DNA of 64,000 nucleotides from Aureococcus anophagefferens. Lineage: Eukaryota; Sar; Pelagophyceae; Pelagomonadales; Pelagomonadaceae. Below are positions 1,337-60,758 of the stretch, one piece after another. The notes beneath the pieces are model-generated. The model was not told the origin of the DNA and did no database searches. It saw nothing but the letters and a program-made list of their open reading frames with translations. Both the position numbers and the translations under genes were made by a program. The DNA lies in assembly GCF_000186865.1 (NCBI RefSeq), contig NW_008705561.1:2826874-2890873 (forward strand), read 5' to 3'. Each line of letters begins with the position of its first letter. Positions within the stretch are counted from its first letter, which is position 1.

Positions 1337-2523
1337 ATGATGCGTCGCTGGCTCCGACTGCTGCTGGCGGCCGCGGCGGCGGCCAAGCGCACGGTGAACA
1401 TGGCCGGCGTCGTCGAGGTCGACGCCTGGATGCACCACCGAGCGCCGCCGCCGCGCCGCTGGGACGCCACGGATCCGGCGGCGCTCGACGCAAAATGGAC
1501 GAAGCTCAGCAGCGGCTTCTACAAAGAGGTGCACCGCGCCACGCTCGGCGGCGACGACGTCGTCGTGAAGCGGCGCAAGCTCTACAAGGCCGACCGGAAA
1601 CGGGCCGGCGGCGCCGCGCTCCGCGGCGAGGCGCTCTATCACGAGCGCGAGGTGCGCGGCGAGGTGCTCTACCTCGAGTATTTACGGGGGCTGCCGGGCG
1701 TCCCGCGGCTGCGGGGCGCGTGGCTCGACGCGAACGGCACGCGCGTCACGTACGCCGTCGACCTCGCCGGGTCGAGCCTCGGCGACGGCGACGGCGACGT
1801 CGGCCACCGGAGCCGCCCCTCCAAGGCCTACGCGGCCTGGGCGCGCCGCGACCCCCTCGCCTGCGCCGCCGCGCTCCTCCGCTGCTTCGAGAGCTTCGCG
1901 GAGCGCGGCGGCTTCTTCCTGGACGATTTCGCGGTGAAGCAGTTCACCGTCGACGAGCGAAAGGACGAGATCTGGCTCGTCGACGGCCCGAAGGCGCTCG
2001 CCGGGCCCATCCGCGACTTCTTCGTGCGGCGCGGGCTCCCGGCGCTGCCCGCCTCGACGGGGCCCTGCTCGAAAAAGGAGCCGTGCCCGGCGACGCTCAA
2101 CGAGCACGCGTGCCGCGCCGCGCGGAAACCGACGACGCGACGCGGCTTCAGTACGGTCCACGCAGGTGCCACGCGCGGCGGCCGCCGAAAACGCAGAACA
2201 TCCTCTCCGTGCGGCCCGTCGCGAAGAACCGCTTCCGGCGCTGCGAGGCCGGCAGCGCGGGCGCGCCCGAGGCGCGGGGGAACTGCTTCCCCAACGGCAC
2301 GTGCGCGCCCGTCGGCGCCCACACCCACGCGTTCGACGTCGGCGCCAAGGTCTGGGCGCTGCCGGCCATCGCGACCTTCGCGTCCAAGAAGCACGCGGCC
2401 GCGGCGGGCGCCGTCGCCGCGCTCGCGGCGAAGATGCGCGCGCCCGAGCCGGGCGACCGGCCGACCTTCGCCGCGGCCGTCGCCGAGCTCGAGGCGGCGC
2501 GGCCGCGTCCGCCGCCCGGGTAG
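1337..2523 (+). CDS. secreted or membrane-anchored kinase-like protein
   Basis: Two exons, 1337-2109 and 2166-2523, give 376 residues. The N-terminus is a short hydrophobic signal or anchor. V-V-V-K-R-R-K resembles the ATP-binding lysine strand, F-F-L-D-D-F-A-V-K-Q-F resembles a catalytic loop, I-W-L-V-D-G-P-K-A-L a metal-binding Asp segment, and the C-terminal G-D-R-P-T-F is the usual end of a protein-kinase C-lobe. A cysteine-rich insert (C-x5-C-P-A-T-L-N-E-H-A-C and N-C-F-P-N-G-T-C) suggests disulfides and life in the secretory pathway. The canonical HRD and DFG motifs are not clear, so activity is uncertain. The cysteine-rich part is readable in one frame only when the 56-bp intron is removed. 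Confidence 0.5.
2110..2165 (+). other. 56-bp intron with target-site duplication (minimal introner)
   Basis: The intron begins with GTGCCGCG and the next exon begins with GTGCCACG, a 7/8 duplication. The 48 bp between (2118-2165) start CCGCGCGGAAACC and end GGTCCACGCAG, matching the terminal sequences of the full-length family A introners in this window. Removal joins the two halves of the kinase-like frame (773 + 358 nt, divisible by three). Confidence 0.75.
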
Positions 2524-2532
2524 TCCCCGCGT

Positions 2533-3285
2533 TTATTTCCGGAGCGCGTCCCAGACGGCGTCCCACTCGGCCTGGGCGGCGGCGAGGAACGCCTGGAGGT
2601 CGGCGAAGTCCTCGGGCCGGACGAGCTTGGACATCTTGTTCTCGATGGTCTCGCCGAGCGTGACCTTAAAGGCCTTCTCGTCGACGATGGCGTACTTGTT
2701 CGAGACCATGGACACGTAGAGCGGGATGCCCCGGTCGTAGGCGAGCTTGATCAAGCCGACGCGGAGCGGCATCTTCTCGCCCGTCGGGTTCCGCGTGCCC
2801 TCGGCGTAGACGATGACGGACCGGCCCTCGGCGCACTTGGCGGCGACGGCGTCGTAGAGGGGCCGCTTCGCGTCCTTCTTGCCCCGGCTGAAGTAGATCA
2901 TGTCGCCGAAGAGCCAGGACCGGATCAGGGACCCGGGGAAGAAGACGAGCTTCAGGACGTTGCGCGACACGTAGACGCCGTCGGGCACGAAGGCGATGTC
3001 GAGGACGAAGTCGCTCCAGTTGACGTGGTTGCAGAGCACGACGCAGCCGCGGAGCTTGCCGTCTTTGTCGACGGGCCGCGGCGCGACGCCCCGCGCGCCG
3101 ATAACCGGCCGGATGCAGGACATCAATCGCTCGATGAACTCCGTGTGCGTCGGCGCCGCGCAGAGGCCGACGAGGCTCCCGAGCTTGCGGAACAGGAAGC
3201 CGACGGCCGACAGGTTGAGGCCGACGAGGAGCAGGTAGACGAGGAAGCCCACGGCCCGCACGCCGCTGTAGTGGACGCGGCCCAT
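2533..3285 (-). CDS. PlsC-type glycerolipid acyltransferase
   Basis: A 250-residue acyltransferase of the lysophosphatidic acid acyltransferase (PlsC/AGPAT) superfamily, which moves an acyl chain from acyl-CoA or acyl-ACP to a lysophospholipid. The catalytic N-H-x4-D motif (N-H-V-N-W-S-D, His near residue 87) and the phosphate-binding E-G-T-R motif (near residues 162-165) are both intact. An N-terminal hydrophobic pair of helices would anchor it in a membrane. The first ATG of the frame is at 3285; the frame stays open upstream to 3411 without an ATG, so an upstream exon is possible. The lipid substrate cannot be told from the motifs. Confidence 0.85.
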   Translation of the reverse strand: MGRVHYSGVRAVGFLVYLLLVGLNLSAVGFLFRKLGSLVGLCAAPTHTEFIERLMSCIRPVIGARGVAPRPVDKDGKLRGCVVLCNHVNWSDFVLDIAFVPDGVYVSRNVLKLVFFPGSLIRSWLFGDMIYFSRGKKDAKRPLYDAVAAKCAEGRSVIVYAEGTRNPTGEKMPLRVGLIKLAYDRGIPLYVSMVSNKYAIVDEKAFKVTLGETIENKMSKLVRPEDFADLQAFLAAAQAEWDAVWDALRK

Positions 3286-3463
3286 GGCGTCGACGGCGCA
3301 CGGCGGCCTCGGCGGCACCGGCTCGGCGGGCGCAGCGACGGCGCGCGGCGGCGCAGGGCTTAATCGCTTCACAAGCTCGGCAAGCAAGGCATGCAACACA
3401 TATTCAACCAAGGGTAAACACCGACTAGGCTAATCACAGCCCGCAACCCATCGAATCGATCCG

Positions 3464-6304: not shown

Positions 6305-6451
6305 TTTTGAGGCCGCTGTCGGCTGGTTGTGCACAGCTCAACTGGCGAGCTGAGCGCTTGCACTTTTCGTCGCTAAATATTGCACCCCGCGTCGATTCAC
6401 AATGTTACATTTGGGAAGCTGCCCTCCAACCCCGCCGGGTGTCATCGTTCC

Positions 6452-6907
6452 TCATCCCGTTGGGCCCGGAATTACCGGCGGAAGAACGACACCATGCTCG
6501 CGTTCCACCTCGCGATCCACGCGTTCCATCTCCGCCATGAGCTCGCATTGCTCCCGGCGAAAGCACTCGATCTCGCGGCGGTCGCTCTCGGCAAGCTCCT
6601 CGAGAGCGGCGCGCATCGCCACCCCGTAGTCCTCGACGGTAGCGTGTCGCCATCCGGAGGTACCGGACTCGGAGGCGTCGCGCTGGCCCGGCGGGACCTC
6701 GGAACTGCCGCGCGCCGCGTCGGTCCTGTCGAGGATTTCGAGGACGGCCAACGCGCCGCTGAGGTCGGGATTTTTAAGAATGTTTCCCAGCTCATTCAAA
6801 CGAGCTCAGTCCTTTTTACCTGTTCCGCTGTCGCTGCCAGGCTTTCCCGCAGTTTCAGCTGTTTCGCCAGCTCCTGTTCGTTCGCCGCCAAGCGTTTGGG
6901 AATGCTG
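6452..6907 (-). other. probable C-terminal coiled-coil extension of the HMG/SPRY gene
   Basis: Directly behind the stop of the HMG-box/SPRY frame the same strand carries protein-like sequence in two frames. The first segment (6907-6820) reads as an Ala/Leu/Lys/Glu coiled coil. The second (6790-6452) contains acidic and basic heptads ending in V-L-P-P-V-I-P-G-P-T-G. They join each other, and join the SPRY frame, if two 29-nt segments, 6908-6936 (GT...AG) and 6791-6819 (GT...AG), are spliced out; the phases then fit. Introns this short would be unusual, so decay of a longer gene or sequence error remains possible. The second segment has no ATG near its start. Confidence 0.4.
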
Positions 6908-6917
6908 CTGTAGCCGC

Positions 6918-9793: not shown

Positions 9794-9810
9794 CGCGATT
9801 TTACTCTTGT

Positions 9811-11796: not shown

Positions 11797-11850
11797 CGCT
11801 GCGTTGGTATTGGCGGTGCCCTGTGTTGGCTGCTGCTGTAGCGGCGGGTT

Positions 11851-20000: not shown

Positions 20001-23000
20001 CCCCGCGCGGCCGCCGGAGCCGGACGGCGCGGCGCCGGAGCCGGAGCCGGCGCCGGGGCTCGCGGGCTCCATCGCCGCGTCGCTCCGGGCGTGCAACGTC
20101 GCCGCCTGCGGCTCGGCCATGGACGCCGAGGACCCCTGCGAGGACGTCGTGCCCCGGGCCTACGAGCCGCCGCCGGAGGGCGCCCCCGCGCGCCGCGAGT
20201 CCGCGCGCGCGTCGTCCGCGGCGGCCGCGCGGCGCGGCCGCGCGGTGCTCGTCGTGCCCGAGGCCCGACTCGGCAGCCGCCACGGGCGCGTCGTCGTCGT
20301 CGAGGCCGAGTCCGGCTGCGGCAAGTCGGCGCAGGTGTCCGCGTTCGCGGCGCTCGCGTCGCCGCGGACCGCCGTCGTCTGCTTCTGTGCGGCCAAGCCC
20401 TTCGGGGAGACGACGCCGCTGGGCCCCTTCGTCGCCGTGGCCGCGCACTACGTCGGCGTCGTCGCGGCGCGCGCCTGCGGCGGCCGCCACGTCGCGTGCC
20501 GCGCGCTGCTCGGGCGGCCGGAGCTCGACGACGACGGCGCGTGGGACGCTGTGTGGAAATCAAATCTTCAACCCAACTTCAATGTGCGCGTAATCGAACG
20601 ACTTGGACAAGACTCTTTCGCTGTGCTCCGAGAACTCGACGAGAGCAACCGATTCGTCCAAAAATCAGCCAAATCGACTTCGATTTGACCGAGATAGAGA
20701 GCTCTGAAGTTTGGTGGGGACCCCCCAAACCAGTGGTTGATTTCCACACAGGTGGGACGCGGCGCGGCGCGAGCTCCGCGACGTGCTGCGGGCGCCGGCG
20801 GAGCTGCGCCTCGACGGCGGCGACGGGAGCGCGAAATTCGCCCTGCTCTTCCGCCTGCTGAACGCCGCCGCGCGGGGGCCGCGGCCGCTCGTCGTCGTCA
20901 TCGACGACGCGCAGCATCTCGACGTCGCCTCGTGGAAACTCGCGGCGCTCTGGCGCTCCGAGGCGCTGCCGGGGCTGCTGGTCCTCGCGACGCGGCCCCT
21001 CGTGTGCCTGCCGCCCTGGCGGGCGCGGGAGCGGGCCGCGGCGGCGTGCCTGCTCGGCGACGACGACGCGAGCGACGGCGAGGCCGACGAGGTCGCGCGG
21101 CGCGACGGCGGCGCGGCGCCGGCGGCGCCGACGACGATCCGCCTGGATGGGTTGCCGCCCGAGGACATGGAGTGCCTCGTGCTGGAGACGCTCGGCGTCG
21201 GCGTCTGCGCGCGCTCGCCCGTGCGGAAATCAACCGCTGGTTTGGGACGTCCCGACCAAACTTTGAAATTCTCTAGCTCGGCCAAATCGCCGTCGATTCG
21301 GCTGATTTTTGGACGAATCGATCGCTCTCGTCGAGTTCTCGAAGCACAGCTGAAGATATTGTGTCGAAACGTTCAAATACGCGCATATTGAAGTCGGGTT
21401 GAAGATTTGATGTCCACGCAGGTGCTCGCGCGCGCTCCGCGGCGCGGTCTTCGAGTACTCGCGGGGCAACCCGGGCCTCGCCGCGGACGTTTTAGACGAG
21501 CTCGTCCACGGGCCGGACCACGACGCGCGCTTCTCGCGCCGCGACGCGGGCCTCCCGCCGAGGCGCCGCCCGAACGCGGCGGCGCCCAAGCGGTCGTCGG
21601 CGAACGGGAAGCGGAGCCTCGCGGCCGCGCCGGCGAAGGACGGCGTCGTCGACGCGCGCCGGGCCCGGGCCTGGCTGCCGCCGCGGCCCGGCGCGCCCTC
21701 GCTCGAGGTCGTCGAGCTCAACGGGTCGACGCTCGTCCGCGGGCCCTCCGGGCGCGGGCCGGCCGCGCGGCTCGACGACCTCGGGCCCCGCGGCGGCCCG
21801 CACCCGGGCTGCCGCCTCGCGCGGGCGCGCCTGCGCACGTCCGCGGGGGCCCCGCTGCGCGTCGCGGAGACGGCGCGGCCGCGGAGCGCGTCGGGCGACT
21901 TCGCGGAGCGCGCGTCCGACGCAGGGCAGCAAAAGGGTGATTCAACGTCGCTTCAACGTGAGTGTTCCGCGCGCGCGCGTTTCAAACCCAGCACCCACGC
22001 TTCGAGAGCGCTCCGAGAGATGATCGCTCGTCCAAAAATCAGCCGAAACGAGCGAAAACCGACCGAGATAGGAGCCTTTGAAGTTGGGCATGTCGCACCC
22101 TTTTGCTGCCCAGGTCCGACGCCGGCGACGACGGCGCGGCGAAGAAGCGGCCGTCGTCGAGCGTCGTCGCCGTCGTCGACCGCTTCCCGCTCGCCAACAC
22201 GTCCCGCCAGTCGCTCACGGAGAAGCTCAACGGCCTCGACGTCACCGCGCTCATCGTCGCGAAGACCGGCGCGGGAAACGGGCGCGACAGGCCCAAAGGC
22301 TCCTCTCTCGGCCGTTTTCCACTCGTTTCGGCTGATGCTTGGACGAGCGATCATCGCTCGGAGCGGACTCGAAGCGTGGACGTTTGTTTTCCTCGAACGC
22401 TCACGTTGAAGCGACGTCGCATCACCCAGGTCAAGACCGCGGCGCTCGTCGGCCACGCGTTCTCGCTGCCGTTCCTCAAAGACTGCGCGCCGCCGTCGCT
22501 GGGCGGCGACGCTTTGGAGGACGCCGTCGGCGACCTCGTGGCCCTCGGCCTGCTCGAGGTGCTCCCGGACGCGGGCGACGCGGTCGCGGGCCACGACGAC
22601 GCGCGCTACGGCGCGGGAAAAAAGGGCGCGAACTTCACAGGCTCCTAGCTCGACCGGTTTCCACTCGTTTTGGCTGATTTTTGGACGAGCGATCATCCCT
22701 CGGAACGGCCTCGAAGCGTGGATGCTTTTTACGGAACGCGCGCGGAACGCTCCCGTTGAAGCGACGTCGAATCACGCTTTTCAGGTGCTCTACGCGGTCG
22801 CGCACGGCCCCGCGATGCGGCGCACCGTCGCGCGGCGCATGCTCGTGAGCGACCAGCAGCTCCTGCGGGACCGCATCCGCCGCGCGGCGGACGCGGCGGC
22901 CCAGAAGCGGTTCCGGCGGCGCGAGGCGCAGCTCGCGCGGCAGGTCGCCGTCGCCGGGTCGAGCCGCGGCGCGGAGACGTCGGGCGTGCTCCTCTGCCTC

Positions 23001-24626
23001 AAGCGCTGCGGCAAGGTGTCGTCGGCGCTGGCGCGCGTCGCCTGGACCTGCGAGGCGCTGTCGGCGCCGTCGCCGCGCGAACAGGGCGACGACGACGCGG
23101 CCGACGGCGGCGTCTTCCGCGGCGCGTTCGTCCGGGGCGACCGGCGCCTCGCGGTGAACCAGCACGTCCACTACAAGCCGCGCTACGCGAGCCTCACGGC
23201 GACGGAGCTGCTGCTCTTCAAGACGGAGGCCGACCTGCGCCGGGGCGCGCCCTACCACGCCGTGCCGCTCCTCGGCGCGTCGTGCGCGCTGGCCCGCGAC
23301 GAGTCGCCGTCGTCCGCGACGAATCGGGCCCGGTCCAAGCTCGGCGGCCAGTCCGGCGCGCCGACGTTGGTGCTCACGTCGGGCAACTCGACGTCGAAGA
23401 AGCGGCGCGACGTCCTCGTCTTCGCGTCGCCGCGGCCCGGCGACGACGACGCGCGCGACGACCTCGAGGACTGGCTCGTCCGCGTGCGCCTCCTCGCGCG
23501 GCGCGAGCAGCAGCGGCGCGCGGCCCGGGACCACGACGCGGCGCACCACGACGTCGACGCGGCGGAGGAGGAGGAGGCGCCGCCGCGGCAGCGGTCCGCG
23601 GAGGACCACGCGCCGCCGCCGGACGCCGGCGCGGGACGCGGGCGCTTCGAGTTCGCTTCAACACGAGTGTGACGCGCCCGAGTGTTCCGGAGAAAGGATC
23701 CACGCTTCGAGAGCGCTCCGAGAGATCATCGCCCGTCCAAACATGAGCCAAAACGAGTGGAACACGACCGAGATCGGAGCCTCCAGAGTTGGGACGTTCG
23801 CGCGCTTTAGGCCGGACGCCGGCGACCACGTCGCGCCGCACCGCCACTCGCTCGCGCACCGGGCCGACGCCATGGTCCTGTCGAGGAACACGCGGCGCGA
23901 CGGCCCGCGCGCCGCGCCGGCCGCGCCGCCGGACCTCCTGCGCGTCGTCGTGCGGGTCGAGGCCGCGAGGAACCTGCTGAACCGCGACGTCTACGCGCTC
24001 CCGCACTCCGTCGCCTACGCGCTGGCCCTCGGCGGCGCGCGGCGGCGGAGCGCGCGGCCCGTGCTCGGCAAGGCGGCCATCACGTGGGCCGAGGAGCACG
24101 CGTTCCTCGCGGAGCGCGCGGACGTCGACGACGGGGCGGGAACGGAGAGATTCAATTTCGCTTCAACGTGAGTGTGCCGCGCGCGCGCGTTCCGGGACAA
24201 GCATCCACGCGTCGAGACCGTTCCGAGAGATGATCGCTCGTCCGAAAATCAGCCGAAACGAGCGGGAAACGGCCGAGATCGGAGCCTTTGAAGTTGGGCA
24301 TGTCGCACTCTTTTCCTGCCCAGGTCGAGGACGCGACGTCCGGGTTGTCGAGCCTGAGGCTCGCGGTGCTCGACAAGCGCGCGTTCATCGCGCCGGACCG
24401 CCTCGGCGACGTCGACGTCGACCTGCGGCCCTACGTCGTCGACGACCCGCCGGACGAGCCCGACGGCGCGCCCTGGGAGCGCCACGCGTGCCTGCGGGCC
24501 ACCGACGCGACGTCGTTCCCGCTCAACGCGCCCCAGGAGCAGAACATCCTCTGGCTCGCGAAGGACAAGGTCCAGCCGCCGACCATCGCCCTCGCCATCA
24601 AGATCTTCAAGGCGCGCGTCTCGTAA
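17062..24626 (+). CDS. soluble adenylyl cyclase (ADCY10)-like protein with ATPase, PH-like and C2-like domains
   Basis: Eight exons (17062-20540, 20752-21210, 21422-21913, 22114-22258, 22430-22600, 22785-23617, 23811-24123, 24324-24626) sum to 6195 nt, a single 2064-residue frame. Cyclase domain 1 has both metal Asp residues (D41 in F-C-D-V-S-G-F, D90 in F-K-F-A-G-D) and the adenine-selecting Lys (K86). Domain 2 has the sAC-like F-V-N-L strand, T415, N422 and R426 (Y-T-C-L-G-D-S-V-N-L-A-A-R). A P-loop (S-G-C-G-K-S, about 1084-1089) and Walker B (D1211-D1212) follow, as in bicarbonate-responsive mammalian sAC. The C-terminus differs from sAC: a PH-like region (about 1697-1825) and a C2-like region (about 1900-2060). 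cAMP synthesis from ATP is expected. All seven introns are introners. Confidence 0.85.
20541..20751 (+). mobile_element. introner, family A (cyclase intron 1)
   Basis: The element spans 20549-20751 (203 bp) with perfect 15-bp inverted ends CTGTGTGGAAATCAA. It is flanked by GTGGGACG at 20541-20548 and 20752-20759. The intron uses GT of the first duplication as donor and the terminal CAG as acceptor; the GT inside the element would break the frame. Confidence 0.95.
21211..21421 (+). mobile_element. introner, family A, inverted (cyclase intron 2)
   Basis: The element spans 21219-21421 (203 bp) and is inserted in the opposite orientation to the first copy. Its duplications are GCGCTCGC upstream and GTGCTCGC downstream (7/8). 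The frame requires the GC of the upstream copy as donor, giving a GC-AG intron. Confidence 0.93.
21914..22113 (+). mobile_element. introner, family B (cyclase intron 3)
   Basis: The element spans 21922-22113 (192 bp). Its ends are CAGGGCAGCAAAAGGGTG and CACCCTTTTGCTGCCCAG, near-perfect inverted repeats. Both duplications are GTCCGACG. Donor GT, acceptor CAG. Confidence 0.95.
22259..22429 (+). mobile_element. introner, family B, inverted (cyclase intron 4)
   Basis: The element spans 22267-22429 (163 bp), reverse-complement orientation relative to intron 3. Duplications GCGAAGAC and GTCAAGAC (6/8). GC donor, phase 0; the joined exons read into the helical repeat after the ATPase domain. Confidence 0.88.
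22601..22784 (+). mobile_element. introner, family B, inverted (cyclase intron 5)
   Basis: The element spans 22609-22784 (176 bp), same orientation as intron 4. Duplications GCGCGCTA and GTGCTCTA (6/8). GC donor, TTTTCAG acceptor, phase 0. Confidence 0.88.
23618..23810 (+). mobile_element. introner, family B (cyclase intron 6)
   Basis: The element spans 23626-23810 (185 bp). Both duplications are GCCGGACG. GC donor, TTTAG acceptor. The joined frame continues from the PH-like region toward the C2-like region. Confidence 0.93.
24124..24323 (+). mobile_element. introner, family B (cyclase intron 7)
   Basis: The element spans 24132-24323 (192 bp). Duplications GTCGACGA and GTCGAGGA (7/8). GT donor, CCCAG acceptor. 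It interrupts the predicted C2-like fold. Confidence 0.93.
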
Positions 24627-25516: not shown

Positions 25517-26750
25517 ATGCGGTCGCTTCTCTACCTGTTCGTCGTGGCCGTCGCGGCGACTCCGCCGGCGAGGAAGCAGAAGCGGGCGGACAAGAAGCTG
25601 AAAAACTACGCGTCGACGCCACGCGAGGCGAGGAAGCAGAAGCGGGACGACAAGAAGCGGAGAAAATACTGCTACGCCGATGCGAACGACTCGTGCGACC
25701 TCCTCCACAACGCCGTCGGCGGCAACTGCCTGAAGCGGCTCCGCAAGGACCCGTCGCTCTGCCGGCGGCTCCGGAACGCGACGCGGAACGCCGTCGGGTA
25801 CCTCGAGGACGCGGGAGCGCCGCCGATCGAGCCGATCCTCCGGCCCGTCGTCATCGGCGCGGGCTTCGGGCACACGGGCACGCACGCCGTCGCGGCGTAC
25901 CTCGACGAGCTGGGCTTCAACGTCGCGCACAACCTGCCCCACGTCGTCGTCGACGCGATCCGCTGCCGCAACTTCGCGAAGCTCGACGCGTTCGACGCGT
26001 TCCTCGCCGTGCCGAATAGCTTCCACCCGACTTCACTATGCGCGTCATCTTACGGTCTGGACCGGACTCCTCACTGGTTGATTCGCGCGCAGGTTCTTCG
26101 ACGACCCGCTGGCCGCGACGTGGCCGATCCTCCGCCGCGTGTTCCCGAACCACCGCCTCGTGCTCACGCACCGCGACGACTACAAGCGCGTCTACGCGCC
26201 CGACGACGCGCGCTGCGTCGCGCGGCGCGAGCGGCGCGACCCGATCACGCTCGCGCACGCGGCGAGCTCGTGCATGGTCTTCGGGGCCGTCTGCGCCGCG
26301 GACCGGGCCTGGAACAAGCGCCTGCAGGACGAGAACGTGCGGCGCTTCCGCGACCACGAGCTCGTCGCGCGGCACCGGCGCAGATTCGGCATCGAGCACG
26401 GGCGCGCGCGATCCTTCGACATCAAGCGGGGCGAATTGAACTTCACGACGATGCGCGACTTCATCGGCACCTTCGGCGCCGCGGCGACGTACACGGGCGC
26501 GGGGCCCCACCACCCGGACTGGCCCTTCGACCACAAGGTCGACTCCGTCGGCTTCTCCCGCGGGAGCCCGGCATCCAAAATCAGCTCGGCGGGGACGACC
26601 GGGGGGCGGACGCCCGGGCGCGCGCCGAGGACGCCGAAGGCCCGCGACAAGCTCGGGGCCCGCGCGGCGCCGTCCACGTTCCTCGACGAGGCCACGTTCC
26701 GACGAGCGGGCCCCGTGGACGTGCGGTTCGACGACGACATCGTGCGATGA
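25517..26750 (+). CDS. sulfotransferase-like P-loop protein, secretory
   Basis: Exons 25517-25998 and 26093-26750 give 379 residues. A short signal peptide is followed by a duplicated basic motif (A-R-K-Q-K-R-x-D-K-K). G-A-G-F-G-H-T-G-T-H-A-V is the phosphate-binding 5' loop of sulfotransferase-like P-loop enzymes. After splicing, F-F-D-D-P-L-A-A-T-W-P-I-L and F-P-N-H-R-L-V-L-T-H-R-D-D match the usual second region of this fold. A PAPS-dependent sulfotransferase of the Golgi lumen is inferred; the acceptor is unknown. The gene ends 30 bp from its convergent neighbour. Confidence 0.65.
25999..26092 (+). mobile_element. internally deleted family A introner (94-bp intron)
   Basis: The element spans 26007-26092 (86 bp). 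It keeps family A sequence at both ends, including CCCGACTTCA near the start and ACTGGTTGATT near the end, but lacks about 117 bp of the middle. Duplications GTTCCTCG and GTTCTTCG (7/8). GT-AG; splicing restores the sulfotransferase-like core. Confidence 0.9.
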
Positions 26751-26780: not shown

Positions 26781-28930
26781 CTAGACCACGCTTGCGTCTT
26801 GCGAAGGGCGCACGAGCGCCGCGGCGTGGTCGGGGTCCTTGTCGTCGTAGGCGTCGAGCTCGTCGAGCGCGCGCGCCATAACGTCGTGCGCGGCCGCCCC
26901 CTCGGTCGGCGGCGCGTCGTCCGGAGGCGGCGCGAGCTCGTCGAGCGCGCGCGCGAAGTCGTCGTCCGGGGCCTCGTCGGCCGGCGGCGCGGCGGTCTCG
27001 TCCTCGGGAGGAACCGCGTCGTCCGGAGGCGGGTCGTCCGGAGGCGGCGCCGCGTCGTCGGCAGCCGCCGCGTCGTCCGGAGTCGACTCGTCCTCGGCAG
27101 CCGCCGCGTCGTCGGGAGTCGACTCGTCCTCGGGAGGCGCCGCGTCGTCCGGAGGCGGGTCGTCCGGAGGCGGCGCCGCGTCGTCGGGAGTCGACTCGAT
27201 CTCCGGCGGCGCCGCGGCGGCCGGAGGCGGCGCGTGGGGCGGCGCCTCCGCTTCGTCGTCGGACGGCCGCGGCGTGTCGTCGAGTGGGATATCCACGAGC
27301 ACGCCCTCGTCGCCCTCGGCCCCGGCCTCCTCGTCGCCGGCGGCCTCTTCGAGGCGCATCGGGTTCTCCGAGACGCGGACGTCGTCGCCGTCGTAGGCGT
27401 CGACGGTGGCCCCCGGCTTCGCGGCGCGCGCGAGCGCGGGCAGCTCGACGCGGCGCGGGATGAGCGCCCGGGGCCCCCGGAGGCAGGCGTCGAGGCGCGG
27501 CCGCCGCGCGCGGACCTCGCCGACGTAGGCCCGCCACGCGTCCAGCGACTTGCGCTGCAGCCCAAAGGTGAAGAAGCAGGCGCAGCCCTGGGCGCTGCCG
27601 ACGCCGAAGAAGACGAAGTAGAGCACGACCTTGGAGTAGGGGTAGCCGCCCGGCGCGCCCCGGCAGGGCCCCGCGTCGCCGTCGAAGTAGCTCTCCTCCA
27701 GGAGGCACGCGATCCACCGCTCCCACGCGTCGGACCCCGCCTCCTGCGCCATGGCGTCCACGGCGATGGCGAAGCAGCAGAACATGAAGATCATGTTCGC
27801 GCAGTGGAGCACGATGAAGACGAGGGGCGTGCCCGCCTGTGTGCAAATCAACCGCTGGTTCGGGACGTCCCGACCAAACTTTTGAAATTCTCGAGCTCGG
27901 TCACATCGAAGTCGATTCGGCTGATTTTTGGACGGATCGATTGCTCTCCTCGAGCTGTCGAAGCACAGCGGAAATGCTCGTCTCAAAACATTTCGAATAC
28001 GATCACATTGAAGTCGGGTTGAAGATTTGATTTGCGCACGGGTGCCCGCGAAGCCCATCTTCCGCGCGAAGCCCGGGTCGTCGAAGATCGCCGGCGTCGC
28101 CGACGCGCGCGCCTTCGCCGCCGCCGCCGCGATGGACGCCAGGGACTTGCGGAACCGCGACCGCCGCGTCGCCTCCGCGCCCGGCGGCGGGGCCGCGGGC
28201 GCCGCGCGGTGCTGCGGCGACACGGCCGTCGTCGGTTTCCGCGCGATGACGTATAGGACGTGGCACATGAAGCCGAGGCCGACGAAGGACGTCGCGAACA
28301 TGGGCCCGAGCCAGAAGGCCCAGATGAAGGTGCCCGTGACGCGTTCCCGCGCCGGCGCGCTCCCGGGGTTGAGGTAGGGCCTGTGTGCAAATCAACCGCT
28401 GGTTTGGAACGTCCCGACCAAACTTTGAAATTCTCTAGCTCGGTCAAATCGAAGTCGATTCGGCTGATTTTTGGACGGATCGATTGCTCTCATCGAGTTC
28501 TCGAAGCGCAGCGGAAGTGCTTGTGTCAAAACATTCGAATACGCTCACATTGAAGTCGAGTTGAAGATTTGATTTCCACACAGAGGTAGGGCGAGCAGAT
28601 GGGGANNNNNNNNNNNNNNNNNNNNNNNNNNNNNNNNNNNNNNNNNNNNNNNNNNGCCAGCGTCGCCGCGACGGCGGCGTCGCTCGCCGCGTCGACGCCG
28701 GAGACGACGCCGGCGCAGGCCGCCGACGCGTTGCCCGCGAGGGACCGGCCGCCGCAGCCCCCGCCGCAGTGGCAGCCCGACAATCGCAACGCCGCGCAGG
28801 TCTGGGGCGACCGGTCGCCCGGCGCGAAGCCGCCGCAGACCGCACCGCAGCCGCCGGCGGCCGCGATCTCGCGCGTCAGCGAGGCGCCGCCGGCGCCCGC
28901 GACGACGAGCAGCAGCCGCGCGAAGATCAT
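26781..28930 (-). CDS. multispan membrane protein with Cys-rich lumenal part and acidic repeat tail
   Basis: Three exons (28930-28593, 28380-28050, 27836-26781) give about 574 residues if the 50-N gap inside exon 1 is the true length. The N-terminus is a signal peptide followed by a Gly/Cys-rich segment (C-H-C-G-G-G-C-G-G). Two or three hydrophobic helices follow in exon 2 and early exon 3, including T-G-T-F-I-W-A-F-W-L-G-P and P-L-V-F-I-V-L-H-C-A-N-M. The last 200 residues are acidic and proline-rich with repeats such as P-P-D-D-A-A-P-P and E-D-E-S-T-P-D-D. No family was recognised. Both introns are full-length family A introners. Confidence 0.65.
27837..28049 (-). mobile_element. introner, family A, open in frame
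   Basis: The element spans 27837-28041 (205 bp), flanked by GTGCCCGC on the plus strand at 27829-27836 and 28042-28049. On the gene strand the donor is GC of GCGGGCAC and the acceptor CACACAG. The 213-bp intron is a multiple of three and contains no stop in the host frame, so retention would add 71 residues. Confidence 0.95.
28381..28592 (-). mobile_element. introner, family A
   Basis: The element spans 28381-28583 (203 bp), flanked on the plus strand by AGGTAGGGC at 28372-28380 and 28584-28592 (nine matching bases; eight are probably the duplication). On the gene strand the intron starts with GC and ends CACACAG. The joined exon reads S-P-Y-L-N-P-G. Confidence 0.93.
28606..28655. other. assembly gap of 50 N
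   Basis: Exactly fifty undetermined bases lie inside the first exon of the membrane protein gene. A round number suggests a placeholder, although the host frame happens to be kept across it. Confidence 1.
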
Positions 28931-37033: not shown

Positions 37034-38132
37034 TCAGTCGTGCTTGCCCATGGGGGCGTTCACATTCGCCTGGAACGTGCAGTACAAGAGGCTGTCGTAC
37101 TCGGGCTTCATGGTCGCCAGCGCCACGACGGCGCTCAGGGCCGCGGCGATGAGGGCGATGGCCGTCCAGAGGCCGATCTGGTACTCCTTGACGTCGTCGA
37201 TCGTGTAATAGTCGTCATCCCCCGCGGAAGTCGGCGCGGCCGTCGCGTCCGCGAGCCTACCAAGCATGACGGTGACGGTTTCTCATTGTTTTCCCACCCC
37301 AAATCTCTCGAAAATCGTCACGGCCACAGGACGCCGCCGCGAGCCGCCGCGCGTCGTCGTCGTCCTCGAAGACCACGAAGGCCGCGGGCCGCGCGCCGTG
37401 GCGCGCGACGGCCTCGAGGATCGCGAGCCCCGCGGCCGCGTCGCCGGGCGCCAGCGCCGCGAGCCGCGACGCCACGAGCACGTCGACGCGCGGGCGCTCC
37501 GCGTCGCCGTGCGGGCCCGCGGCGACCTCCGCGAGCCCCGCGGCCTCGCCGAGGAACGCGCCGTGGGTTTCGGCGTCGAGCCAGGCGCCCGTCGCCGACC
37601 CGCGCACGCGCGCCGGGCCGCCCTCTCGGACGACGGCGCCGCCCGCGGCCGCGACCGCGGCCTCGAGCGGGTGGCCCGCGGCCGCGAGGCGCCGCAGCGC
37701 GCGCTTCCCGTCGACGGGCTGGAGCCACCGGTCGCAGAGCGCGCCCGCGGCGCCGGCGTTGGCGCCGGCCGCGCAGACGACGCCCGCGACGCGGCCGCCG
37801 GCCGCGTCCGCGGACCGGAGCCCCGCGCCGACGGCCGCGGCGACGTCGCCGCCCGGCGCGAGCCGCCGCGCGCCGGCGCCGCCGGCCCCGGCGGCCCCGG
37901 CGGCCACGGGCGCCACGACGACGGCGAGGCGGCTCGGGGGGCTCAGGAGGTCCGTGGCCGGGAGGCCCGCGTCGGCGCTCAGCGGGGCGCCCAGCGTCGC
38001 CGCCCAGCGGCCCAGGGCCTCCCCGGCGATGGACGCCGCGCCGCCGCCGTCGGCGGGGAAGGAGCCGCTGAACGAGACGTGGGCCGCCGACGCGCAGCAC
38101 GCGAGGGCGAGCAGCGACGCGACGGTGCGCAT
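37034..38132 (-). CDS. ATP6AP2/renin-receptor-like type I membrane protein
   Basis: Exons 38132-37345 and 37256-37034 give 336 residues. It starts with a signal peptide (T-V-A-S-L-L-A-L-A-C-C-A-S-A-A), has a long Ala/Gly-rich lumenal domain, then D-D-D-Y-Y-T-I-D-D-V-K-E-Y-Q-I-G-L-W, one transmembrane helix and a short tail with M-K-P-E-Y-D-S-L-L-Y. That end is the conserved signature of ATP6AP2-type accessory proteins of the V-ATPase. The lumenal domain is poorly conserved in the family, so the call rests on the tail. The two parts are in different frames until the 88-bp intron is removed. Confidence 0.7.
37257..37344 (-). mobile_element. 88-bp GC-AG intron with perfect target-site duplication
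   Basis: The inserted 80 bp (37257-37336) is flanked by CCGCGAGC on the plus strand at 37249-37256 and 37337-37344. On the gene strand the donor is GC of GCTCGCGG and the acceptor GGTAG. The ends carry an imperfect inverted repeat around GTGACGRTTT. It is not clearly family A or B, so it may be a third type. Confidence 0.85.
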
Positions 38133-52410: not shown

Positions 52411-52454
52411 GTCAGGAGGCGGCGCGCGACGGAAATTAAAATGGGCGGGCCCTC

Positions 52455-55400
52455 CTAGCCCGACGTGAGCCGCCGGTTGCCGCGGGAGGAGCTCTTCTCG
52501 CGGGGCTTGCGGCCGCCCTGGAGCATGTACTGCTGCTCCGTCGTGAGGAGCTTCTTGTTCTTGTGCATGAGGCGCGCCTGGCCCGTGCGCAGGTTGCCCA
52601 TGGCCGCGAGCGCGCGCGTCTGCGCGAGCGCGGCGTCGGCGACGGGCCCCGACATCTTCGCGTCGAGGCACGCCTTCAGGCTCTTGCGCGCGGAGACGAG
52701 GGCGACGACGCCCTCCTTGCGCTCGAGGTCGTTCTGGAGCTCGTAGAGGAGGCGCACGACGCGGCCGCCGAACTCGTGGGTCCGCGCGATGAGCTCGGAG
52801 TGGCCCTCGATGTCGCTGAGGCCGCGGTCGCGCCACCACTGGCTGTAGAGCTCCCAGTGGATGGGGCCCGACACCTTGGGCTGGCACTTGCCGTTCTCCA
52901 TGTCCATGTTCCACCACTCGTGGTAGTAGCCCCGCTCCTCGCTGTGGACGATGTTGTACAAATTGATGGGGTCCAAATCGGAGTACGACCCGACGGCCTC
53001 CGGCGGCTTCACGATCTTCAGGCCCGCCTCGACCATGCGCAGGGCGATCTCCTCGTCGTCCAGGCCCCAGCCCCAGTTGTCGTTGGCGTAGCCGTTGCAG
53101 GCGACGTAGTCCTCGGGCCGGAACGCCAGCGCGCCGCCCACGAACTCCGCGTTGCGGTACTTGGTCCGCCACGCGCCGCCGAGGTGCACGGGCCGCTTCG
53201 ACTTGGGCGGGCACGTGTAGTAGGGCATCAGATCCTCGCTCGGCAGAATGTCGATGTCGTGGAAGATGACCGAATCGTAGGGCCGGCCCTCGGCCTCCGC
53301 CTCTTGCACGACGTCGCGGAACGCCGCGTTCATCAACCGGCCCCGGTTGAACTTGCGGCCGTCGTCGGTCTGCGTCGCGATGACGACCGTGAACTCGCAC
53401 TTGGGCCGCGCGTAGCCCAGGTAGGCGACCATGTAGGGCACGAACTTGAAGAGCTGGGGCTGCCGGTCCTGGAGCGGCAGCTGGTTCCGGTACGCGGCGA
53501 TGAGGCAGACGCGCGGCGGCCGGTCGCCGAGCTTCGCGCTGACCATGGAGATGATCGCGTCCGTCTTGCGCTTCACGAGGGCCATGGGCGATTTGTCCTC
53601 CTCCTTCTCCTCGACGGCCGTCTCCTCCTCTTTTTTCTCCTCCTCGCCGTCCTTGGCCTCCTCGGCGCCGCCCTCGGCCGCGGCCTTGATCGCCTCGGGC
53701 GTCTTGCCGCCCTCGGTGAGGAGCTGGTACTCGGCCTCGCACTCGTTGACGTAGTGGTCGTCGGGCTTGGAGCAGACGAGCTTGTGGTGGGGCCTGAGTG
53801 GAAATACAACCAGTGGAACGCCCTGTCCAGCAAAAACTTCAAACCTCTCTAGCTCGGCCAAATCGAAGTCGATTCGGCTGATTTTTGGACGAATCGATTG
53901 CTCGCGTCGAGTTCTCGAAGCACGGCCGAAGAGCTTGCGTCGAAACTGTCGCATGCGCTCACATTGAAGTCGGGTTGAAGATTTGATTTCCACGCGGGGT
54001 GGGGCCACGCGGCCTTGCCGCACTCCGTCGAGCAGTAGAGCGTCGTCTTGCAGCGGCCGCAGCGCTTGAACTTCTTGTTGCCGTGCATGAGGCGCGTGGG
54101 CTTGCGGCACCAGGAGCACTGCTTCTCGTTGCGGAAGGGGTTCATCGTCGCGTGGTCCATGCCGTTCCAGTCGTAGCCGTCCGGCCGCTGGAGCAGCGAG
54201 AACGAATTCGGGTCCACGAGCTCCTTGCCCGTGACGTCCTCGTCCTGGAGCTCGCACGACAACAGGTCGACCTCGAAGCGGAGCCAGGTGCCCCGGGGCG
54301 ACTCCTTGGAGTAGCCCGGCACGGCCGGGTAGCGGCCCTTGCGGCCGAAGGTCTTCTCGGGCACCATGACGAAGTGCGCGAGCTCGCCGACGCGCATGGA
54401 CGCGAGGCCCTCGTGGAGGCCCTGGAGGTACTTTTTGGAGCGGGGCACGCCGTTGTGGTCCTCGTCGCAGAAGAGGCGTAATTTCTCCGGCTCGACCTTT
54501 TGGGTCTGGTAGTCCTCGTCGTACGAGCTCTGGCAGACCGTGCCGTCGAGGCGCGACATGATGATGTGGCAGACGACGAGGCAGCCCGCCGTGGGCCGCC
54601 GGTTCGGCCCGTCGCGGGGCGCCTCGCGCTCGATCCACTTCTTCACGGAGATGTCGCCGTTGAGCAGGTAGGGCTTCTCCTTGGTCGCGTTCCGCTCGTC
54701 GTCGGACGCGGGCTCGCCCTGCGCGTCGTAGTAGGCCCGGTGCGTCGGCGCGCCGGGGCGGTGGGGCCACTCGTCCCAGTCCCAGAACTTCTTGTACTCG
54801 TCGGTGTCCGTCTTCCAGATGTGGCCGCTCTTGACGACGTCCTCGACGGTGAGCAGCGCGAGCTGCGTCGCGGCCTCCGCCTCTTTCGCGTCGTCCTCCG
54901 CGGACTTGGCCGGGCCCGTCGCGGGCCGCGGCGGGAGCTTGTACTGGCGCCAGCCGCTGTTCTTCTGCCGCTCCCACTCCTCGGCCTCCTCGAGCTCGCG
55001 CTGCTCCCGTTCCTCGCGCGTCTCCTCGATGACCTTGTCGTCGTCGCTCGCGGCCGTCTCGCCGTCGCCGCCCCCGAGGCCGTCGAGGCCCAGGGAGAGC
55101 ACGGGCAGGTCGTCGTCGCTGCCGATGAAATCGTCGTCGTCCGCCTCGGGCGTCAGCCCGCCGTCCGCGACGGACATCATCTCGAGCAGCGCCATCGGGT
55201 TCGGCGCGCCGTCGCCGCTCCGCGCGCCCGGCGCCGCGCCCTTGAACAACCCCTCGGGCGCCTGGGGCACGTCGATCTTGCCCTGCTCCCAGGCCAGCAG
55301 CTGCTCGTACCACTCCACGGTCACGTCCTTCTTCTCCATGATCGGGTTCGCGGCTTTGAGGGACCGCGAGATGCCCTCGCCCTCCTTGATCTTGCCGACC

Positions 55401-56241: not shown

Positions 56242-56466
56242 CGCTCCGACTGGTTCGTGCCCTTCATCGTGCCGGTGGCGACGCCAGCCGAGAGACTAGA
56301 CGACTTCCACGGCCGTGATGGCTGGCGCGGAGAGCAAGCCCTCGACGACGCGTCGCTGCAGTTTTCCGTTTTCAGCTTGAAGTTCAACGTAGACGTAGTC
56401 CCGAGTCGTGCCGCCGGCCGCGGAGTCCGGCCGACGACGCGACGCGCCGCCCTCGGGCGTTCCCTC

Positions 56467-58309
56467 TTACGGGTCCGCGGGCCAGTCGACGACCCCCCCG
56501 CAGACGTCGCGGCGGCAGGCGTAGAGGTCGCTCTGCTCGCCGCCGGCCTCGCGCGCGGGCTTGCCGAAGCGGTAGTCGCGGCGCACGGAGTCCGGCGACC
56601 GCCAGTCGGGCGACCGCGCGCCGCGCCTGAGCCCCGCTTTCGTCGCCGTGGCCTCGAAGCCCAGCGCGGCCACGGGCAGGTGCTCGTCGTCGGCGACGGA
56701 CCACATGAGGTGCGGCACGAGCTTGAAGCCCCCGTAGCCGAGGTGCTCGAGCGAATCGAGCGCGGCCTGGTCCTCCGCGGAGACGTAGAGCGGCCGGTGC
56801 GGGAAGGGCACGCGCGCCAGGGAGTCGATGCAGACCTGGTCGAAGCCCTCGATGTCGACCTTCAAGTAGTAGCACGCGCCGCAGAGCGAGCCGACGACGG
56901 CCGCGCACGTGGTCGTGTTGACGCGCGCGCTCGCGCAGCTGTTGCCGCGCCTGCGCTGCTCGTCGCAGGAGAGCGTGCTGCTCGACATCTCCGGGTTGTC
57001 CTTGTTCACGGCGAAGTCGACGTGGGGCGCGCGCGGCGCCCAGGACCCGTCGCCGCCGCCGGGCGGCGCGACGGCGACGAGCCGGAGGTCCGCGCGGCCG
57101 TGCGCGGCGGCGAGCGCGACGACGGGGTGGCGCCGCGCCTGGCGCAGCAGGCCGTCGTTCGCCTCGAGGCCCACGACGCCGAAGCCGTGGCGCCTGTGGA
57201 GGGCGCGCGTGTCCTTTTTCAAAAAAATTCCGTCCCGCGCCGCGCCGCGCAGGTAGGCCGCCGTGTCCGCGCCGTTGTGGACGCCGACGTCGACGACGAC
57301 CTGCCGGTGTTTCGTCGGGGCGCGCGCCGGCGCCGTCGGGCGCCGCCGCCGGCGGGCAGCGCGCGCGGGTCCGCGAGGCGCGCCGCCGCGTCCTCGACGA
57401 GCGGCGGCGGCGCGGACCTGCGGTCGATGGTTTTTGAAACATGCGGGGGTCGGCACGCGGCGACGCCGGGACGGGACGGCACGAGGTCGCCGGCGATGTA
57501 CTCGTCGCAGCTCGAGCCGCGCCACCGCTTCGGCGCGTCTCCGTCGTCGCGCGACAGCGCGCCGTCGCGGATCGCCTCGCACCTGGCCCGGGCCCACCAG
57601 GCGAAGCCGCCGACGGGGTCCCGCGCCCAGGCCGGGGGCCGCTTGAGCGTCGCCATGGTCTTCTTCGCGTTGAGTACCGCGCCCGCGCAGCCGGCCTCCT
57701 CGCGGCACCGCTGGAGCGCCTCCGCGCAGCCGCCGCGCGCGCACTTGACGACGATGGGCGGGTCGAAGTCCGCGCCTGCGAGGCGCTCTCCCGCGGAAGT
57801 CTACGTGCGGGACGCGGGGCCGCGCCGACGAGCGCCGTCGGCGTCCGCGGCGGGAAGACGCGGGGCGCCGGCGGCGCCTTCGCCGCCGCCGCGGCGTCGC
57901 CGTAGACGACCGGCGTCGCCGAGGCGAGCGGGTGCGGGTCCGCGTTCGCCGCCGCCGCGCGCGCCGCGCACGCCGACGGCGGCTGCGCCTCGGGCGACGC
58001 GGCGCGCGGCGGCGCCGCGAGGTCCGAGGCCGCCGTTCGCGACGCCGGTGGCGGCGCGATCCGAGGCGGCGTCGCACCGTGCGGCGTGGCGGCGGCGACG
58101 TCCGCGGACGCCGCGACGACCGGAGGCGGCGGCGCGGGCTGCAGCGGCTGGGAGCCCCGCAGCACGCACACCAGCAGTGCGCCGGTGACGATGCCCAGCG
58201 CGTACGCCGCCAGCGTGTGGCTGCGCGATGTCGACGACAGCTGCTGTTCTGGCGCTGGGCTCGGCTCGGTCTGCGGCGCGTACGGGGCGCGACCACGCCG
58301 CGACGCCAT
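56467..58309 (-). CDS. FkbM-family methyltransferase with signal anchor
   Basis: Exons 58309-57826, 57775-57354 and 57300-56467 give 579 residues. A type II membrane anchor (A-A-Y-A-L-G-I-V-T-G-A-L-L-V-C-V-L) is followed by a Pro/Ala-rich stem, then a cysteine-containing domain (C-A-R-G-G-C-A-E-A-L-Q-R-C-R-E-E-A-G-C). The C-terminal FkbM domain has V-V-V-D-V-G-V-H-N-G-A-D-T (SAM-binding glycine loop), V-V-G-L-E-A-N and Y-Y-L-K-V-D-I-E-G-F-D. FkbM enzymes O-methylate sugars or small molecules; a Golgi location is inferred from the anchor. The second junction (57301-57353, GC...AG) is inferred from frame and fold; its donor is not certain. Confidence 0.75.
57776..57825 (-). other. 50-bp GC-AG intron with target-site duplication
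   Basis: On the gene strand the intron begins GCGCGGCC and the next exon begins GCGCGGAC (7/8). Only 42 bp (57776-57817) lie between, starting CCGCGT and ending CGCAG like family A ends. Removal keeps frame and creates the cysteine-rich segment. Confidence 0.75.
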
Positions 58310-58848
58310 CGTTCCAGGGGCTGCCCCAACGGAGTTAATCCACATATTAAGGACAAAGTTCAAATTTTACCTTACACGGAAATGACCCCTTAGTCAAGAA
58401 CAAGCACATTTTCGGTTATTTTTTAACACATCTCGGTTTTTTTTCGCAAATTTTATAAGGATTTTTTTACACCAACGTCCTTTTTAAAAATTTACATTTT
58501 AACAACCACTTTTTAATGATTTTTTAGCGAGTTTCCTAAAATTTTAAAAAATTTAACCACTTTTGGTGAAGTAATGTTTACCTTCAAAAATCGCGGTCAG
58601 TTTTATATCAGGTTTGGTTAAATATTATTTGGTCTTTTATAAGGTTTTGTGATGGTCACAAAGAAAAACTCACAAACCTAAAACATAAAAAAAAACCTAC
58701 CTAATAGGACTAAAACAGGAAATGACACTTCAACATCTGTTTTTTGGAAAGTCCGGGACAAATTCCCTAATAAAAACTTCCCCATCAGAATTACTATGAT
58801 TTCCTCCTGGGCAATGACACCTCCATCCGGCAGGAATCAGCATGCACT

Positions 58849-59145
58849 CTAAACACCTAATAACATCAATTCCATATTTATCACATTAGAAACATTCCAA
58901 TTAGATATATCTTGATTGAAAGCCTCCGCTTGATAGAACATATTTTTCATATTAGTCACATTAGAAACATTCCAATCACCAATATATTGATTAAAACATT
59001 CAGCGTCCGAAAACATACCTATCATTTCAGTAACATTAGAAACATCCCAATTACCAATAGGTTGATTGAATTTTTCACATGCAGCAAATACATAATTCAT
59101 TTTTTTTACATTAGAAACATCCCATTTAGAAATATCTTCATACAA
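58849..59145 (-). CDS. DUF285/BspA-like leucine-rich repeat fragment
   Basis: A 98-residue frame made of four copies of a unit of about 24 residues with F-N-Q-x-I-x-x-W-[DN]-V-S-N-V-T-x-M-x-x-M-F. This is the DUF285 (BspA-like) repeat found in bacterial surface proteins and in some large algal DNA viruses. Complete proteins usually have many more repeats, so this is a fragment. Both ends run into non-coding AT-rich DNA. Codon use is A/T-ending, quite unlike every other gene here. Confidence 0.7.
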   Translation of the reverse strand: MYEDISKWDVSNVKKMNYVFAACEKFNQPIGNWDVSNVTEMIGMFSDAECFNQYIGDWNVSNVTNMKNMFYQAEAFNQDISNWNVSNVINMELMLLGV

Positions 59146-59170
59146 TAATTATATAATATACAAAATACAT

Positions 59171-59542
59171 CTCATTCCCTTATCCAGAAAGGGTCGCGCT
59201 TTAGCGGTGAATACAGCGTGGAATTGCCATTCAAGTTTTCGGAAGTGTTTTGATATTCCAGGATTTCAGTTTTTTAAAAGGGAATATTGCTACAACTCCT
59301 TATATAACACATCCAAATCAACAATCTCTTCCTTTTTACAGACGTTTTTCAAAATAAAATTAAAAAAATTCGAAAAAAAAATAAATTTATTACAAGACTT
59401 ATAGAATATACCAAATACAACTCATTCCCTTATCCAGAAAGGGTCGCGCTTTAGCGGTGAATACAGCGTGGAATTATACAAATACATCTCATTCCCTTAT
59501 CCAGAAAGGGTCGCGCTTTAGCGGTGAATACAGCGTGGAATT
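59171..59542 (+). repeat. three perfect 55-bp direct repeats
   Basis: Identical 55-bp units lie at 59171-59225, 59421-59475 and 59488-59542, with a partial copy of about 14 bp near 59558. Each is preceded by AAATACAWCT. The unit, about half G+C, is richer in GC than the AT-rich DNA around it and contains AAAGGGTCGCGCTTTAGCGG. The spacings (195 and 12 bp) are unequal. Confidence 0.9.
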
Positions 59543-59957
59543 ATACAAAAACCGCATCATTCCCTTATACAGATGATCTCAAAAATTTTAACATCATGTC
59601 ATAAAATAACCAGTGTTGTTTAATTATTAACTTCTGGTTGGATATGAACAAACTTTGGTCATTTTACAAGCCAATTCCCCCCAACGGGCCTCGAGTTTTT
59701 GTGGAAACTTGCCATAACTAGGGGATCGTGGGCCGCGCGGTCGTGCCTGTTTGTTGTTGGCGAGCAGGCTTGTGCGCGACGTGGGCGGCGGTAAGGCGAA
59801 AAACGATGTCCCCCACGCCTGCCGCTGCGACGTCTGTGGCAGGCGCGACGACGACGTGTGCGGGCGCCGCCCGGGGCGGCCGCCCCGTGTCCCGGCGGGG
59901 CCGGCCGTAGAACAGAAGACGAGCATCTGGGTGCCCAGGGCGATCCGCGCCGTCAAG

Positions 59958-60758
59958 ATGCTGGGCCTGCGAGCGATGGGCGCCCGCCTGGGCGTGGGCA
60001 GGAGCCTCGCGCGGCCGCTGTCGAGCGTGGCGGCGCCGAGCTCCGAGCTCGGGTCCTTCGACTACGGGTTTAAGAAGGACCGCATCGCGAAGACGACGAG
60101 CGGCGCCGCGGAGAACCGGGGCTTCACGTACCTCGTCATGGGGTCGAACAAGTTCATCTACGCGTCGGCCGTGCGCATCGGGGCGCTCAAATTCATCGCG
60201 ACGATGTGCGCGTTCGGCGTCCGGGTTTCGAACCGGCGGCCCCGCCTGCCGGCCGCGGAACGCGGCTGGATTTGGGGGGGGAGCGGCCGCCCCGCGCCGT
60301 CGAGGGAAGGCCCCGCGCGCCGCCCCGCGCCGACCCCCCCGCGTGCCCGCAGGTCCGCGTCCAAGGACGTGCTCGCGCTCGCGAGCGCCGAGTTCGACGT
60401 CGGCGCCGTCGAGGAGGGGCAGACGATCACGGTCAAGTGGCGCGGCAAGCCCGTCTTCATCCGCCACCGCACGGCCGAGGAGATCGCCCAGTCCGAGGCC
60501 GTGACCCTCGACGAGCTCCGCGACCCCCAGCTCGACAGCGAGCGCGTCGACACGTCCGAGTGGCTCGTCGTCATGGGCATCTGCACGCACCTGGGCTGCG
60601 TGCCCATCGCCAACGCCGGCGACTACGGCGGCTGGTTCTGCCCCTGCCACGGCTCCCACTACGACGTCTCCGGCCGCATCCGCAAGGGGCCCGCGCCGCT
60701 CAACCTCGAGATCCCGCCCTACAAGTTCACGGACGACACGAACCTCCTCGTCGGCTAG
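59958..60758 (+). CDS. Rieske iron-sulfur protein of mitochondrial cytochrome bc1 complex
   Basis: Exons 59958-60205 and 60353-60758 give 217 residues. The 2Fe-2S ligands are complete: C-T-H-L-G-C and [10 protein letters not shown] basic mitochondrial presequence ([14 protein letters not shown]) precedes one transmembrane helix and the hinge [11 protein letters not shown], which is created by splicing. The C-terminus [11 protein letters not shown] is typical. The protein transfers electrons from ubiquinol to cytochrome c1 in respiratory complex III. Confidence 0.93.
60206..60352 (+). other. 147-bp intron with target-site duplication
   Basis: The intron starts GTGCGCGT and the next exon starts GTCCGCGT (7/8). 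It ends CCCGCAG. The insert (60214-60352) is GC-rich and does not obviously match family A or B. Splicing restores the Rieske hinge exactly. Confidence 0.8.

Follow-up and report, generated by a model that had tools for sequence, protein, structure and literature searches.

In 2016, Huff and colleagues reportedly described introners in Aureococcus anophagefferens and Micromonas pusilla as non-autonomous DNA transposons that carry one splice site and co-opt the other from the duplicated target. The present work deals with fifteen putative introns of this kind, and with their relatives in the same genome, in a 64-kb stretch of A. anophagefferens DNA (contig NW_008705561.1, positions 2,826,874 to 2,890,873; guanine-cytosine (GC) content ~70%), hereafter the window, whose positions are counted from its first letter. 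With respect to the introners of 2016, the core mechanism and the genus are the same, and the species is probably the same. A survey that includes Aureococcus contains an Aureococcus sp. example in which, as far as the legend of its Fig. 2F goes, the introner carries both splice sites and adds 4 + 8 = 12 bp (PMC9860276), whereas in the window the donor seems to come from the duplication. The introners of Amoebophrya (PMC7789003) share with those studied here the terminal inverted repeats and the direct repeats at exon borders, but their direct repeats span 3-5 nt and their splice sites are non-canonical, instead of the 8 bp and GY-AG (Y, T or C) found in the window. Both the mechanism and the genus were thus published before; the finding is real, and it was already known.

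The introns of the window would almost certainly be introners, i.e., short non-autonomous DNA transposons that give rise to an intron when they insert into an exon. A transposase acting in trans would insert the element and duplicate 8 bp of the target; with a target reading GYNNNNNN on the sense strand of the gene, the first copy of the duplication would become the 5' splice site, the last three bases of the element (CAG or TAG) the 3' splice site, and the second copy the opening octamer of the following exon. Excision of the first copy together with the element would then restore the pre-insertion mRNA. We infer this course of splicing from the sequence. A preliminary description of the window had already proposed introners whose 5' splice site comes from the target-site duplication, and this proposal is supported, as it explains the repeat families, the GY/AG pattern, the reading frames and the homology at the junctions.

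All 15 coordinates of that description were re-read, and the 8-base match that it had reported between the start of the intron and the start of the next exon was recovered at 15/15 sites, with the same counts. The match is perfect (8/8) at seven introns (20541, 21914, 23618, 27837, 28381, 37257 and 53794), 7/8 at six (2110, 21211, 24124, 25999, 57776 and 60206) and 6/8 at two (22259 and 22601). Read on the sense strand, GT or GC opens 15/15 duplications and AG closes 15/15 inserts, as claimed before, the insert ending in CAG in 13/15 and in TAG in 2/15. Five introns lie on the minus strand (27837, 28381, 37257, 53794 and 57776) and the other 10 on the plus strand; the intron ends 2165, 20751, 21421, 22113, 22429, 22784, 23810, 24323 and 26092 have been added. 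Nonetheless, a match of at least 7/8 with an AG 45-230 bp downstream turns up 361 times on one strand of the window and 331 times on the other. A 7/8 match being so frequent by chance in GC-rich DNA, the match alone is no proof, and support independent of the repeat is needed. These numbers lent some credit to an "all chance" reading, which was rejected by the permutation and mispaired-flank controls given below.

Six of the fifteen introns were assigned to a first repeat family, F1 (one of them with an internal deletion), five to F2 and one to F3; intron 2110 has F1-like ends, and two have no known relatives. Searching the 49-Mb genome with a 203-bp F1 query (20549-20751) and a 192-bp F2 query (21922-22113) gave 1726 and 1771 first-look candidates, respectively, and the 40 scored for each family were 91-100% (F1) and 93-100% (F2) identical to the query, so that in both families many near-identical introns stand at unrelated sites. 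The terminal inverted repeat of F1 is perfect over 15 bp, and that of F2 (ends CAGGGCAGCA...TGCTGCCCAG) has one mismatch, although in several window copies these repeats are decayed. Intron 37257 was placed in a third family, F3, because its two ends are shared by one sibling, a 55-bp insert at L044:2607-2661 whose duplication is 7/8. From 123 local matches, 103 distinct copies were obtained by removing 9 short ones, 3 at edges and 8 duplicates. With the ends fixed by the alignment, the duplication is 8/8 in 79/103 copies and at least 7/8 in 90/103; when the ends may slide up to 5 bases, the figures are 84/103 and 97/103, the mispaired-flank control with the same sliding giving means of 1.66 and 12.1.

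A gene finder that is blind to the duplications and penalises GC donors predicted 33 introns in the window, which overlap with all 15 described here, with the exact 3' end in 14 and both ends exact in only 5. A match of at least 7/8 is present in 11/33 of the predicted introns (in-frame donor shifts of up to 33 nt being allowed), versus a mean of 1.29 and a maximum of 6 in 2000 permutations of the exon starts. The idea that the 8-bp repeats are due to chance, or to proto-splice similarity at ordinary introns, draws on the frequency of random 7/8 matches, and it may perhaps be true of 57776 and 60206, without relatives in the loci examined. Against it stand the perfect duplications of the family copies, found at fixed ends while the mispaired flanks were allowed to slide, and the result of the permutations. 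It is refuted for F1 and F2, and very improbable as a general explanation.

The splice-site pattern extends genome-wide. Among the copies with a 7-8/8 duplication, 91/97 have GY...AG on at least one strand, as would be the case if the 3' splice site lay in the element and the 5' splice site came from the duplication. The exact 15-base end of F1 is present 774 times in the genome (backward control, 0), and GYN6 precedes 467 of these ends (60.3%), the expectation being 59.9% if the sense end alone is constrained and the other end is free, and 19.7% by chance. In the list of 100 places, 24 F1 copies are represented by both of their ends; GY stands on one side or the other in 24/24 of them, and on the two sides at once in 6, the probability of 24/24 by chance being ~1e-11. 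Since this constraint is asymmetric, and a target preference of the transposase is expected to be symmetric, it most likely originates in splicing and not in a symmetric insertion preference. Regarding F2, at least 688 exact left ends whose first base is not C are present in the genome (control, 1), and 96 of the first 100 listed start with GY, against 0.31 by chance. The pattern is also followed by those F1 copies whose left end is, unusually, CAG, with an 8/8 duplication, a GY start and a CAG end in 10/10. GT and GC donors both occur in both families (18 GT and 23 GC in 41 F1 copies; 31 GT and 10 GC in 41 F2 copies). The difference between these counts (p = 0.006) was dropped and no contrast in donors is drawn, because the wider F2 list contains 53 GC and 43 GT among 100 listed.

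These results also bear on the possibility that the elements are ordinary transposons, mostly located outside exons or in pre-existing introns, whose splicing is incidental. The sample consists of the best-matching copies and of one window, and intergenic copies fall outside the count, which leaves some room for this view; however, each of the 12 introns assigned to a family consists entirely of the element and one duplication, and the asymmetry in GY is genome-wide. We consider this the least probable of the alternatives.

A different arrangement would keep the introners and move the donor, with many F1 copies using the GT in their own left terminal repeat (CTGT^GTGG), and 12 extra in-frame bases (8 from the duplication and 4 from the element) being left in the mRNA. 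Such a GT is present in the left ends of F1, an addition of this very size is described in the Fig. 2F legend mentioned above, and several of the donors chosen by the blind gene finder lie precisely 12 nt inward, although most of these concern F2 copies and GC. As 12 is a multiple of 3, the reading frame cannot separate this donor from the one in the duplication. Under this arrangement, however, no constraint would act on the opening dinucleotide of the duplication, whereas all 24 of the paired F1 copies have GY; and at 53794 four extra residues would split a MYND zinc finger that, across the proposed junction, aligns without gaps to SMYD2. The internal GT is hence disfavoured, since the protein alignment at one F1 intron and the genome-wide restriction to GY both speak against it, and we regard it as unlikely.

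Reading frames and proteins offer support for the introns that makes no use of the repeat. Codon usage in 150 bases on each side was used to pick the frame of each flank, with a model trained on the gene of the window with seven introns, a protein with an adenylate/guanylate cyclase domain (PF00211; 17062..24626, plus strand). The flanking coding frames join on splicing in 15/15 introns, the result being informative in the 12 whose length is not a multiple of 3; intron 60206, in frame and free of stops, is among those for which it is uninformative. Once its seven introners are removed, the cyclase gene is open for 2079 codons (counted from 17017); an earlier stop appears if any one of six introns is kept, but not if the in-frame intron of 171 bp is kept. 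At the protein level, the Rieske protein encoded across intron 60206 aligns without gaps to solved mitochondrial Rieske proteins. The score of the sulfotransferase-like protein is 30.9 bits when spliced at 25999, versus 20.1 bits for the first exon alone; four paralogues (L089-L092) are present in the same genome, and the three compared at this site (L089-L091) read through in one frame, L090 and L091 without gaps and L089 with a 3-residue gap just before the junction. A relative with 59% identity (P0002) likewise reads through, the alignment having a gap of one residue slightly upstream. The gene at 1337-2523, which contains intron 2110, matches an NCBI entry named "serine/threonine kinase [Aureococcus anophagefferens]" with 74% identity over 95% of the query (85% in the alignment), in long near-identical stretches interrupted where the gene models differ, a match that agrees with Aureococcus as the source. 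A relative with 54% identity (P0005) aligns without gaps at the junction of intron 2110, and other relatives have gaps nearby. Introns 2110 and 25999 are thus lacking in relatives or paralogues, as seen at the protein level, and from proteins and frames splicing at the fifteen introns appears to restore the pre-insertion mRNA. The earlier statement that splicing rebuilds the pre-insertion sequence holds in this sense, with the frames of 15/15 introns and the homology at junctions behind it, and with one exception at 2110.

This exception, together with several other observations, weighs against the interpretation given here. At 2110, an A. anophagefferens gene model (P0004) and a metagenome protein (P0003) continue differently from the spliced reading; both may be unspliced or mis-modelled. 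The copies and loci were drawn from best-match searches and not at random. Among the 97 copies having a 7-8/8 duplication there are six in which neither strand shows GY...AG, some of them apparently through slips in the assignment of ends. Introns 57776 and 60206 have no repeat-family match in the loci examined and no clear terminal inverted repeat, and no transposase-bearing element between introner-like ends was found. Lastly, none of the remaining 18/33 predicted introns reaches 7/8 and two reach 6/8. The preliminary statement that most of the introns visible in the window fit the duplication logic is thus partly supported: 15/33 predicted introns do fit and the other 18 do not, but many of the latter are weak predictions, and several have poor acceptors and perhaps are not real introns, so that the fitting share would lie at 15/33 or above, depending on how many of the predicted introns are real. 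A further qualification is that 57776 and 60206 are tied to none of the repeat families, and 2110 is tied by its ends only.

Besides their common logic, the two main families differ in the direction in which they would be spliced. According to internal orientation, 25 F1 copies are spliced forward, 16 reverse and 9 either way; the ends of F1 are symmetric (CTG...CAG), and splicing is therefore possible both ways. In F2, AG is confined to the end serving as 3' splice site. Among 41 unambiguous F2 copies, 33 are forward and 8 reverse; the sense 3' end is CAG in 41/41, whereas at the sense 5' end 40/41 carry CAG or CGG, one carries TCG and none carries CTG. In a tree of 44 F2 copies (weak branch support, unsettled bootstrap, 3 rows without label and a sampling skewed to the forward query), the forward/reverse label requires 2 changes, as opposed to a mean of 7.5 for shuffled labels (0/500 as low). 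This suggests that F2 comprises two related sublineages that differ in their direction of splicing, a feature possibly less documented, and that a single parent element acquired its acceptor at one end in the first sublineage and at the other end in the second. In the simplest reading, a parent with CAG...CTG ends would become a one-way intron by a single T-to-A change at either end. Whether the outermost bases of the terminal repeat set the direction of splicing, and did so more than once within one transposon family, is an evenly balanced question.

The individual introns are as follows. Intron 2110..2165 (plus strand, 56 bp), in the kinase-like gene, joins the frame only if spliced; by eye its ends resemble F1, and it may be a short deletion derivative. 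All seven introns of the cyclase gene are on the plus strand. The F1 introner 20541..20751 forms a 211-bp intron with the 15-bp terminal inverted repeat, its duplication appearing again at 20752-20759, and 21211..21421 is an F1 introner of opposite internal orientation (84% to F1 reversed). Among the F2 introners, 21914..22113 belongs to the forward sublineage, 22259..22429 (the 171-bp one) and 22601..22784 have the reversed internal orientation (75 and 83% to the minus strand of F2, respectively), and 23618..23810 and 24124..24323 show 78 and 88% to F2. Inside an open frame, a 69-bp unit occurs three times in tandem (16194-16400), with 88-96% identity to the first copy. The sulfotransferase-like gene (25517-26750) contains the 94-bp F1 internal-deletion derivative 25999..26092 (plus strand; 76% to F1 over 50 nt). 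A predicted minus-strand gene (26781-28930) has two F1 introners, 27837..28049 (81% to F1; 213 bp, the frame being uninformative) and 28381..28592 (85% to F1; its upstream flank holds a run of N). The remaining minus-strand introns are the 88-bp F3 intron 37257..37344, with ends CGGCGTCC...TTGGTAG, the F1 introner 53794..54005 within the MYND zinc finger (GC donor; 81% to F1), and the 50-bp intron 57776..57825, which joins the frame only if spliced. The 147-bp intron 60206..60352, on the plus strand in the mitochondrial Rieske gene, has no F1 or F2 match.

The spacing between neighbouring introners also shows a period. The gaps, 29 in number and taken from best-match loci, fall at 152-176 (8), 307-355 (6), 439-543 (9), 603 (1) and 803-842 bp (5). 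A period of 164 bp fits these gaps best, and 0/20,000 uniform random sets scored as high. A spacing at multiples of ~164 bp agrees with insertion between nucleosomes, and it is indirectly, from the spacing, that we infer a possible preference for linkers. Insertion of introners between nucleosomes, with exons of nucleosome size as the outcome, was reportedly proposed by Huff and colleagues in 2016. A linker bias is likewise discussed in the survey including Aureococcus, which cites nucleosome insertion in the passage concerned (PMC9860276).

Concerning the mobilising enzyme, two pairs of F1 ends lying 0.75 and 4.5 kb apart were considered as an autonomous partner and rejected, the reading of their ends showing separate introners. 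Transposons of the hAT type create 8-bp duplications and have termini of CAGNG type; the sense 5' end of F2, mostly CAGGG, fits such termini, and the ends of F1, mostly CTGTG, do not. A search of the genome for the hAT domain PF05699 gave 0 matches, as did the control genomes, and a search for the KDZ domain PF18758 gave no matches, with uninformative controls. P elements also create 8-bp duplications, and a transposase of the P-element/THAP9 type is present in the genome as a degraded gene, with PF21787 over the cut-off at C25:178372-178818. This gene has two relatives in the genome at 28% identity, one of which matches three domains weakly, below the cut-off. In the locus on contig C25 (L082 in genome G000), a P-type frame at about L082:1063-2442 contains seven in-frame TAG and no TAA or TGA over ~1.4 kb; our guess is that the TAG stand in place of Trp or Gln codons. 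A partial introner core follows this frame, and part of the locus reads N; we estimate that an introner beside a P-type gene would be expected by chance in perhaps 1/6 of loci, taking an introner density of up to one per 14 kb, from F1 and F2 candidates that may overlap. Equal-scoring P-type relatives with open frames of ~563 residues lie near the ends of contigs C2 and C11 (L084 and L085), which suggests a duplicated end-of-chromosome copy. No introner ends were found at the contig-end P-type relative examined for them (L086). The search for an autonomous P-type partner thus gave none, no P-type gene being seen between introner ends at L086 or L082.

Carriage by viruses was likewise rejected. 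The introner core pattern gave 0 exact matches in viral contigs; the 15-base F1 end gave 43 single matches there, none of them F1-like beyond 23 bases and none with an F2 match, and these were taken as chance. Introners have been described in mirusviruses (PMC12768974), and nothing in the parts of that report concerned ties them to the genome studied here. A low-GC island in the window looks foreign: it lies at 58849-59148 within an AT-rich region of ~58.4-59.6 kb (GC 0.457 over 58001-60000, versus ~70% in the window), where 75-bp repeats encode a match to DUF285 (PF03382, E 4.5e-39) and short repeats adjoin at 59141-59542.

Taken as introners with a donor in the target-site duplication, the introns described here offer a checkable example of the bulk creation of spliceosomal introns, one gene of the window having seven of them. 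Their value is that of a confirmation, with a testable extra, the distinction between one-way and two-way introners.

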